Shown piece after piece: positions 5,938-27,476 of a DNA stretch of 64,000 nt (positions are counted from its first letter, which is position 1; each line of letters opens with the position of its first letter). The position numbers and the translations under genes are program-made. Source of the DNA: Draconibacterium aestuarii (GTDB lineage Bacteria; Bacteroidota; Bacteroidia; Bacteroidales; Prolixibacteraceae); NCBI GenBank assembly GCA_026671195.1, contig JAPOHD010000013.1:1-64000 (forward strand), read 5' to 3'. The notes under the pieces are model-generated. The model was not told the DNA's origin, did not search any database, and saw only the letters and a program-made list of their open reading frames with translations.

Positions 5938-7041
5938 ATGGAAAATTTTATTGTATCAGCACGAAAATACAGACCCGATTCGTTTGAGACGGTGGTTGCC
6001 CAGGCATCGATTACAGGAACCCTGAAAAATGCGATTAAAAGCAGCCAGTTAGCTCATGCTTATTTGTTTTGTGGTCCGCGTGGGGTTGGGAAAACCACAT
6101 GCGCCCGTATTTTTGCGAAAACAATAAATTGCACCAATCTAACCAGTGAAACTGAAGCTTGTAACGAATGCGAATCGTGTACTTCGTTCAATACCAACCG
6201 CTCGTTTAATATTCATGAATTGGATGCCGCTTCGAACAACTCGGTTGATGATATTCGAAATCTTACCGACCAGGTTCGTGTTCCCCCGCAAATGGGGAAA
6301 TACAGTGTGTACATCATCGATGAGGTTCACATGTTATCGTCGCAGGCATTTAATGCTTTTCTGAAAACGTTGGAAGAACCGCCGAAGCACGCCATTTTTA
6401 TATTGGCTACCACTGAAAAGCATAAAATCATCCCAACCATTTTATCGCGTTGCCAGATTTTTGATTTTAACCGAATTGGCGTTTCCGATATTTCGGAGCA
6501 CCTGGAATATGTGGCCAAAAGTGAACAAGTGGAAGTTGAAAGCGAAGGTTTGAATGTGATTGCGCAAAAAGCAGACGGTGCTATGCGTGATGCTCTTTCA
6601 ATTTTCGACCAGATTGTAAGTTTTTCGGGTAAGAAAATTACCTACCAGGATGTAATTACCAACCTGAATGTGTTGGACTACGATTATTATTTTAGGCTGG
6701 TTGACGAATTTTTGAAAAACAATGTTACCGAAGTACTGGTTATTTTTAACGATATCCTGAATCATGGTTTCGACGGGCATCATTTTATAAACGGTTTAAG
6801 CAGTCATTTTCGCGATATTTTAGTTTGTAAGGATCCGGTAACCGTTCAGTTACTTGAGGTGGGTGGTGATATTAAAGAGCGTTATAAAACACAGGCGGCT
6901 TCGTGTGAGAGTGCATTTTTACTGGACGCGTTGCAAATTGGCAACGATTGCGATTTAAAATACAAAACAAGTCAGAATAAACGCTTGCTTATTGAGCTGG
7001 CATTGATTCGGATAGCGCAGCTAACCTTAAAAAAAAAATAG
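5938..7041 (+). CDS. dnaX: DNA polymerase III subunit gamma (short dnaX product)
   Basis: Clamp-loader ATPase of the replicative polymerase. The AAA+ module has the Walker A motif GPRGVGKT (47-53 region), a zinc site formed by Cys65, Cys75, Cys78 and Cys81, Walker B IIDE (126-129) and the sensor SRC (170-172). The frame ends TTA AAA AAA AAA TAG at a run of ten A, after 367 residues, which is just past clamp-loader domain III. The same locus continues open in the -1 frame to 7673 and supplies the expected tau-specific region. So this product corresponds to gamma, and a -1 slip on the A run would yield a tau of about 578 residues. A sequencing error or a true frameshift mutation is the alternative. 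Confidence 0.93.
   Translation: MENFIVSARKYRPDSFETVVAQASITGTLKNAIKSSQLAHAYLFCGPRGVGKTTCARIFAKTINCTNLTSETEACNECESCTSFNTNRSFNIHELDAASNNSVDDIRNLTDQVRVPPQMGKYSVYIIDEVHMLSSQAFNAFLKTLEEPPKHAIFILATTEKHKIIPTILSRCQIFDFNRIGVSDISEHLEYVAKSEQVEVESEGLNVIAQKADGAMRDALSIFDQIVSFSGKKITYQDVITNLNVLDYDYYFRLVDEFLKNNVTEVLVIFNDILNHGFDGHHFINGLSSHFRDILVCKDPVTVQLLEVGGDIKERYKTQAASCESAFLLDALQIGNDCDLKYKTSQNKRLLIELALIRIAQLTLKKK
7029..7038 (+). promoter_or_regulatory. A10 slippery run for dnaX frameshifting or slippage
   Basis: Ten consecutive A bases precede the in-frame TAG of the gamma frame. The arrangement contains A AAA AAA in the right register for a -1 ribosomal slip, and a run this long also permits transcriptional slippage, as known for Thermus dnaX. 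One extra A would join the two frames precisely. A weak 8-bp stem with two G-U pairs can be drawn between 7046-7053 and 7072-7079. Confidence 0.6.
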
Positions 7042-7673
7042 CTGAAGAAGAGGATGATATTCTAGAACCAATCTTTTCTGGTATCGATATTCCAACTCAG
7101 TCTGCTACACAAACTTCTGCACCTACCCCACAGGCACCTCCCAAAGAACATGCAGTTTTAAAAACTCCAAAAACAGAGCCGGGAGCAAAACCCAAAAGAA
7201 CTGTACGTAAAGTAGGAACTCATTCTGTTAGAATGGCTTTAAAGGGCGAGTTTAAAGAGGATGAGAAACAACTTTCGGCAATAGAACAGCACAAAATATT
7301 CTCGCAGGCTGATGAAATAGAACCATTTACTGAAGATCAGCTTATCGAAAAATGGAAAGAGTATTTACCACGTCTTGATGATCGTCCGAGCCTAAAAGCA
7401 ACATTGGGTGCGCTTCCAAAACTTGAGGAAGATTATACCCTGATTCTTGAAATTGACAGCCGGATTCAGGACGAATTATTGACAAGTATAAAACCTGAAC
7501 TTGTTTCGTGGTTGCGTAAAGAATTGCATAACGCGAAGATTAATTTAAAAACGGTAATTACTGAGACGGTTCGCGAAAAAGTGGCGTATTCCGATATCGA
7601 GAGATACCAGGAAATGGCTAACAAAAATCCAAATCTGGCATTGCTTAAGCGTAATTTAAATCTGGATTTTTAA
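7041..7673 (+). CDS. dnaX: tau-specific C-terminal part of DnaX (-1 frame)
   Basis: Reading in the -1 frame from the A run gives an uninterrupted 210-residue extension: an acidic start (AEEEDDILEP), a Pro/Thr/Ala/Lys-rich linker over about 60 residues, then a compact folded region (from about 7270) resembling the C-terminal domain of tau that contacts the polymerase core. The first internal ATG is at 7233, inside the linker-to-domain junction, and lacks a convincing ribosome binding site. An independent gene is therefore less likely than a frameshifted continuation. The frame ends in LALLKRNLNLDF, a typical Bacteroidota DnaX tail by my recollection. If the locus is a pseudogene, this would be its distal fragment. 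Confidence 0.75.
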   Translation, partial: AEEEDDILEPIFSGIDIPTQSATQTSAPTPQAPPKEHAVLKTPKTEPGAKPKRTVRKVGTHSVRMALKGEFKEDEKQLSAIEQHKIFSQADEIEPFTEDQLIEKWKEYLPRLDDRPSLKATLGALPKLEEDYTLILEIDSRIQDELLTSIKPELVSWLRKELHNAKINLKTVITETVREKVAYSDIERYQEMANKNPNLALLKRNLNLDF

Positions 7674-27183: not shown

Positions 27184-27476
27184 GATTTTTTGAATTTAAA
27201 CCTGCTCAACATTTTTTTTTCGAACGCTAAAGCAAATTTGTACTGACCAAACAAGGTGCCTACAATCATAAAAAGGATTTGGTAAGCAGGAACTACGATT
27301 AAAATGTATAAGGGAACTTTTATCCAATAACTTGTATCGGCATTTATTCCCAGTAGATAAAATACGCCTTTCCGAACATATAAGGCAGTTCTGCCGGTTA
27401 CAGAAAAAACGATGAGAATAATTACCAGCTGAAAATTACTTTTTATGTCCCATTTTTGTTTAAAACGCTCAAGCAT
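27180..27476 (-). CDS. DUF6787-like small membrane protein
   Basis: A 98-residue protein with two membrane segments (about 16-36 and 52-75) and a Lys-rich end. The pattern [18 protein letters not shown] and the [19 protein letters not shown] helix fit the Bacteroidota DUF6787 family, whose function is unknown. It overlaps msrA by 4 bases and follows the VTT-like gene by 55 bases. Confidence 0.75.

Follow-up and report, generated by a model that had tools for sequence, protein, structure and literature searches.

A conserved A10 run at the gamma/tau junction of a split dnaX gene: a programmed recoding site in Draconibacterium aestuarii, probably read by RNA polymerase slippage

Introduction

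In Escherichia coli, a single gene, dnaX, yields two clamp-loader subunits, tau and gamma. According to the dnaX passages of PMC5009743 and PMC3711429, gamma results from a ribosomal shift at A_AAA_AAG that is accompanied by a Shine-Dalgarno-like element and a hairpin. The Thermus gene, as presented in the corresponding parts of PMC5009743 and of Baranov et al. 2005 (PMC1088944), has a template that encodes tau, and slippage gives gamma. A further arrangement, in which tau needs a -1 shift, is documented in the dnaX part of Antonov et al. 2013 (PMC3711429) for 17 genes from 12 genera; nine of these carry an A10 run, and transcriptional realignment was proposed for them. The same part of that paper lists two-ORF dnaX genes of the same phylum as the gene studied here with runs of only A8 and A7, and another passage names A_AAA_AAA as a ribosomal shift site as well; section 10 of the paper holds that opposite shift directions in orthologues indicate transcriptional realignment. 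In the relevant passage of Atkins et al. 2016 (PMC5009743), in which the idea of a gamma/tau role reversal is already present, the reversed dnaX arrangement is considered seemingly ribosomal, and one Chlorobium candidate is credited with E. coli-like stimulatory signals. Among the matches listed in a literature search for dnaX slippage or recoding in Bacteroidota, there was no further paper on the site.

The dnaX gene analysed here is of the kind described by Antonov et al. (PMC3711429). As in the two-ORF genes covered by the dnaX part of that paper, the gamma ORF closes at a poly-A run, tau lies at -1 in the DNA, and the run at the transition is mostly A10 and is kept in relatives (here in 32 of 37 genomes of the genus). 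Those genes are of the -1 type; here tau is found at 0, -1 or +1, the comparison extends over 36 loci of the genus and a sample of the phylum, and closure of the other frames was tested. What is new is the extent of the phenomenon: a run of at least nine A's is present in 32 of the 33 genomes of the class that lie outside the order, and the frame behind it drifts.

Organization of the locus

The window, that is, the whole stretch of DNA that was analysed, comprises 64,000 nucleotides of Draconibacterium aestuarii contig JAPOHD010000013.1. Its dnaX gene lies on the plus strand and is divided between two frames. The zero frame (5938..7041) opens with the ATG at 5938, runs for 367 codons and ends with TTA AAA AAA AAA TAG (7027-7041). 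The A10 run, the proposed slippage site, occupies 7029..7038 and adjoins the TAG (7039..7041) that closes gamma. The 367-aa gamma product contains the AAA+ domain, the lid and domain III (Pfam PF13177, PF22608 and PF12169), the last of which (DNA_pol3_gamma3) covers residues 243-362, and it ends just beyond that domain. This first piece matches positions 1-365 of the NCBIfam model PRK14971, lies above the cut-off of both PRK14971 and TIGR02397, and has E. coli gamma/tau as its closest solved sequences. From 7038 onward (ATA GCT GAA...), the -1 frame stays open through 211 codons until the TAA at 7671-7673; this tau-specific tail (7038..7673) matches PRK14971 positions 428-612 of 614 (E 5.9e-23) and no Pfam family at E 1. 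In the third frame, AAT AGC TGA, the TGA at 7043..7045 is met two codons past the run, and a gamma-length product is thus specified by two of the three frames. The original prediction had the DnaX frame ending at a TAG straight after ten A's and at clamp-loader domain III, with a -1 frame that stays open to 7673, carries a tau-type part and brings the joined product to about 578 residues; all of this holds, the joined length being 367 + 211 = 578. Among the best 80 matches listed, the nearest named record is a Sunxiuqinia MAG with 80% identity, which points to a Prolixibacteraceae-like member of the Bacteroidales.

Like E. coli dnaX, this would be one gene for two clamp-loader subunits, with its A-rich shift site close to where the shared part ends. 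As far as the dnaX passages of PMC5009743 and PMC3711429 go, three differences stand out. The shift gives gamma in E. coli and would give tau here, as had been predicted: the zero frame ends at the TAG and the tail is at -1. The heptamer A_AAA_AAG is absent and is replaced by A_AAA_AAA followed by TAG. Finally, E. coli has a hairpin, whereas the window run is without a downstream stem, the 60 and 90 nt that follow it folding no better than shuffles (z 0.33 and 0.83). With Thermus thermophilus dnaX (A9, transcriptional slippage), the locus shares a run of at least nine A's at the gamma/tau junction, its A10 being long enough for a site of this type, as well as nearby stops in the frames that do not lead to tau. 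The arrangement had also been likened outright to that of Thermus, and here the likeness turned out to be inverted: the pertinent parts of PMC5009743 and PMC1088944 describe a template that encodes tau and slippage that gives gamma, whereas the window template encodes gamma, its zero frame ending at codon 367. The Thermus layout is matched by tau-in-frame relatives (e.g. L168 and L194), and a tau-encoding zero frame of this sort is present in two members of the genus, L027 and L168.

Neither the upstream 60 nt nor 100 nt spanning the run gave a notable fold (z -0.69 and -0.13), and no Shine-Dalgarno-like stretch was seen by eye upstream of the run in the window gene or in an alignment of 11 sequences from the genus. 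A 6-base inverted repeat, CAGCTA...TAGCTG, flanks A10 (7018-7044). At least five of its six pairs can form in 33 of 36 genus loci, the other three loci having three or four, and one double change (CAACTA/TAGTTG) preserves pairing. The TAG and TGA stops by themselves constrain the downstream half, so that the repeat may be incidental; a structural role is possible.

Conservation within the genus

The exact 15-mer TTAAAAAAAAAATAG (TTA-A10-TAG) occurs once each in 32 of the 37 genomes of the genus, while the same pattern reversed, used as a control, matches two of 37. Thirty-one of the 32 sites sit at the end of the dnaX match, and the last, on a separate contig of G170, proved to be dnaX on reading. 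The remaining five genomes have A10 followed by TAA (G010), A9 (G006), A11 with tau in frame (G015 and G171) or no dnaX match at E 1e-60 (G178). After one cut locus had been dropped, 36 loci were classed: A10 plus a stop is found in 33 of them, the direction needed for tau is -1 in 32, and the third frame is shut within eight codons in all 33 split genes. The tau tail was detected by tblastn in 18 of 19 genus loci, the other one being cut, and was read in 35.

Codon usage shows what is being kept. In a comparison of 34 genomes of the genus (G006 excluded), 231 gamma residues are invariant and belong to amino acids whose codon can vary synonymously; only seven of these residues are written with a single codon throughout. 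Four of the seven are residues 364-367, TTA AAA AAA AAA, identical in 34 of 34 genomes. Two codons before the TTA, a leucine is written with five different codons, and the TTA itself (residue 364) sits outside the last A_AAA_AAA heptamer. Since the codons of the run are fixed while synonymous sites vary, the run is kept as nucleotides. It is near certain that this is a programmed recoding site, gamma being read in frame and tau being produced via slippage.

Survey of the order, class and phylum

Junctions were read in four further sets of loci, a run-bearing gene being one whose longest A run in the junction zone is at least nine. For the order, dnaX was matched in 139 of 149 genomes and 138 loci were read, leaving out of the count the G155 match, the second piece of G031 and a second copy in G363. 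Among these 138, the genes with a run have tau in the zero frame in 39 cases, at -1 in 19 and at +1 in six; three are ambiguous, 70 are runless and one is cut. All 33 matched loci of the class outside the order were read, giving 19 genes with tau in the zero frame, 12 at -1, one at +1 and a single runless gene. For the phylum outside the class, 102 genomes matched and 55 of them, chosen by the author at about one per genus, were read; the corresponding figures are 24, 11 and none, with 20 runless. The best 80 matches listed among named records comprise 46 with tau in the zero frame, 14 at -1 and one at +1, plus 14 runless and five cut; those with a run include Pedobacter, Mucilaginibacter, Hymenobacter, Chitinophaga, Chryseobacterium, Flavobacterium and Aquimarina. 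Three Hymenobacter genes, with 64-66% G+C and mostly AAG at their other lysines, nevertheless have A10 at the junction. The original prediction attributed an A-run mechanism to this lineage; recoding at the run stands, but the feature is not confined to one lineage, since many of the phylum genomes sampled have runs with a changing frame.

The length of the run is sharply distributed in some groups and not in others. In the class outside the order, the longest run is of 9-11 A's in 32 of 33 loci and of seven in the other. In the phylum beyond the class, 35 of 55 loci have a longest run of 9-10, and the other 20 have one of at most five. In the order, 70 of 137 readable loci are without a run of at least nine, and the lengths below that grade into one another, which speaks against a sharp cut-off in this group.

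Switches between tau-in-frame and gamma-in-frame genes are frequent: at least 27 were counted on a rough FastTree tree (156 residues, 136 run-bearing genes) whose set includes six hand-chosen members of the genus, exceptions among them, from which a few of the 27 switches stem. The tree, like the synonymous nulls described below, takes the sampled genomes as roughly independent. The +1 cases were pursued in three genera, the third of which offered one genome only. In one genus, represented by nine loci, four carry A11 directly followed by a stop and have tau at +1; two others have tau in frame, one has it at -1 and two are cut. In the other, 23 of 25 loci have tau in frame, one at -1 and one at +1, and this lone +1 case differs from two neighbours set alongside by a 2-base gap beside an unchanged A10. 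The four A11-plus-stop loci and the 2-base gap indicate that assembly slips do not account for every +1 case.

Closure of the other frames

In run-bearing genes with tau in frame, both remaining frames stop within eight codons in 35 of 37 genes of the order, 16 of 19 of the class and 17 of 23 of the phylum, against means of 11.2, 4.3 and 4.9 when the downstream codons were resampled synonymously 1000 times; in each of the three samples, none of the 1000 resamplings attained the observed value. The +1 frame taken alone behaves in the same way (35 of 37 vs 17.8, 16 of 19 vs 7.9 and 18 of 23 vs 9.1). These counts, like those for the run below, omit two tau-in-frame genes of the order and one of the phylum that end beyond the stretch fetched. 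In runless genes, 11% of 1496 positions in the order and 14% of 440 in the phylum are shut in both frames within eight codons, and 20-60 codons past the run in the tau-in-frame genes themselves the proportion is 17% (order), 20% (class) and 17% (phylum). The runless control of the class consists of a single gene (A7), with 59% of 22 positions shut in both frames, and is unhelpful.

The presence of the run itself was also set against a synonymous null in tau-in-frame genes. As bare counts, the order has 37 of 104 vs 21.8 expected, a weak excess, while the class (19 of 20 vs 8.0) and the phylum (23 of 42 vs 6.3) are clearer. The weakness in the order is due to lysine-rich linkers and AT-rich codons, which make runs by themselves, and more weight is therefore given to codon identity and to frame closure.

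Level at which slippage would occur

The sequences show that the gene is split, that the split is conserved, that relatives differ in frame and that the non-tau frames are closed; from this I infer slippage itself, the making of two proteins and the transcriptional level of the event. In the scheme that I favour, RNA polymerase would stutter on the T10 template and produce mRNAs with A runs of varied length. Those with 10 (+3n) A's would stop at the TAG, yielding gamma (367 aa); those with one extra A (11+3n), or two fewer, would be read through to give tau (578 aa); and those with 9 or 12 A's would run into the TGA two codons later, again yielding a product of gamma length. For any length of the template, two frames would thus give gamma and one tau, and as a consequence the frame of the DNA could drift freely while both products persist.

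Ribosomal -1 frameshifting at A_AAA_AAA beside the TAG, with an mRNA of uniform length, is the one serious competitor. In the window gene both kinds of slippage join the same residues, so that its own sequence alone cannot decide between them; the relatives can. The heptamer is in phase and directly before the stop, tau lies at -1 in 32 of the 36 loci of the genus, E. coli dnaX shifts ribosomally at a similar heptamer, and the reversed arrangement appeared ribosomal to Atkins et al., in the passage cited above (PMC5009743). Nor is the length of the run decisive: in E. coli cassettes carrying another gene family, for which the part of PMC3711429 concerned gives frameshifting of 10% at A7, 40% at A9 and 63% at A11, frameshifting rises with run length, and long runs might therefore be favoured under either mechanism. 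A ribosomal -1 shift, however, cannot yield tau in the +1 relatives or in the A9 member of the genus, and neither a stable stem downstream of the window run nor, by eye, a Shine-Dalgarno-like stretch upstream was seen. Moreover, it does not require the +1 frame to be closed, and the enrichment of this closure favours transcriptional slippage. Tau at 0, -1 or +1 in orthologues, taken with the rule of Antonov et al., likewise indicates transcriptional realignment. On these comparisons, RNA polymerase slippage is probably the main route, and ribosomal frameshifting in its place is unlikely, albeit worth keeping in mind. Since A10 contains A_AAA_AAA, ribosomal -1 slippage could contribute in the window gene with an identical product, and it may add to the transcriptional route in the genus. 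The original prediction had left the choice between a programmed -1 frameshift and transcriptional slippage open; recoding at the run, with gamma in frame and tau needing a slip, is upheld, and the comparative evidence now favours the transcriptional version.

Three readings that dispense with slippage fare worse. The first is a true split of the gene, gamma being accompanied by a separately initiated tau tail. An ATG is available within the tail frame at 7233 and would give 146 aa, but over 35 genus loci (Met starts only) the first methionine of the tail frame falls anywhere from codon 8 to codon 199 and is missing in two. The tail frames are similar right from the run, with a LEPIF-like motif in about the first 16 residues of most, and the tail is fused in frame in two members of the genus. 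With its methionines so scattered and fused relatives at hand, a separately initiated tail was rejected as highly improbable. Equally improbable is phase variation at the DNA level between A10 and A11 alleles, which could account for the occurrence of A9, A10 and A11 within the genus. A cell without tau should not replicate normally, to judge from E. coli, and a non-slipping A10 allele should therefore be lost, whereas A10 plus a stop prevails in the genus (33 of 36 loci). As for a sequencing or assembly error in a continuous gene with 11 A's, homopolymers are prone to such errors and A9 or A11 does occur in three of the 36 loci of the genus, but the exact A10 plus TAG in 32 of 37 genomes, five of them listed as single-contig (G007, G012, G167, G168 and G184), and the recurrence of split dnaX in other genera make the chance negligible for the genus and settle the comparison of homologous loci that had been proposed as a check, although lone cases elsewhere could be errors.

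Should polymerase slippage prove genuine, numerous members of a large phylum would rely on RNA polymerase error for one of the two products of a core replication gene, and gene callers would be likely to annotate dnaX as truncated in every genome whose template encodes gamma. The frame switches would also constitute a natural experiment: if polymerase slippage sets the ratio, gamma:tau is expected to differ little between close relatives whose templates have A10 and A11.

A candidate +1 element in one family

One family of Bacteroidales, hereafter f2, has another kind of split. Of its 55 genomes with a match, 51 loci were read, and in 41 the zero frame closes after 368-383 codons while the +1 frame stays open beyond that point (L036, L162, L351-L357, L359-L376, L378-L381, L385, L387-L389 and L391-L396). 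A runs of nine or more are absent from the zone in all 41. Each of the three +1 tails scanned corresponds to the C-terminal portion of an NCBIfam gamma/tau model (E 7e-13, 5e-10 and 4e-4). At the junction, AGG CAA TC stands in zero phase in 40 of the 41 loci and AGG CAA CC in the last, and a G-rich stretch follows. Zero-phase AGGCAATC is found in none of the ten tau-in-frame loci of the family, three of which carry an A run of 9-10. Of 58 genomes of the family, 33 contain a longer form, AGGCAATCRCRGGAG; it occurs a single time in each of them, apart from one genome with two dnaX copies, and its reversed form is present in none. The named record L271 also carries the element and closely resembles L364 and L365 there.

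AGG-CAA-YC is put forward as a candidate +1 frameshift element. In L370 the A of AGG forms part of a stop in the +1 frame, and six loci have a zero-frame stop directly after TCR; if the site is common to all, the shift must take place within the AGG CAA TCR codons. AGG is the rarest arginine codon in the gamma part (21 of 432, in 28 loci with a full gamma). I know of no described element of this form. In yeast Ty elements, the +1 site CTT-AGG-C has a slow AGG codon and GGC is taken in the +1 frame; by analogy, a slow AGG with GGC taken in the +1 frame is one possible route in f2. A +1 element in one family would suggest that it is the two-product outcome that is conserved, not the mechanism. 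Joined to the preceding sections, this leads to a wider proposal that I regard as evenly poised between right and wrong: in Bacteroidota the frame at the gamma/tau junction would be near neutral, through slippage on 9-13 A's and repeated 1-2-base indels, and in one Bacteroidales family an undescribed AGG-CAA-YC +1 element would replace the run.

Other observations

A few loci of the survey have unusual junctions. L088, L099 and L135 have A10 at the junction, but their zero frame runs on for another 40-95 codons before it closes; L099 has a tau-like tail further on in another frame. Their tails are candidates for having diverged, been lost or been miscalled. L286 has an in-frame TAG at about codon 367, past which the tau tail goes on without a change of frame, and it has no A run; readthrough, an error or another device are candidate explanations. 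Genome G383 has two dnaX copies of differing frame type (L404 and L409); its listed contamination is 8%, and it is therefore probably mixed.

The window contains six A or T runs of at least nine. One of these, an A9 on the minus strand (27212-27220), is situated some 30 bases ahead of the stop codon of a 98-codon ORF, which overlaps by 4 bases an ORF that I take to be msrA-like.
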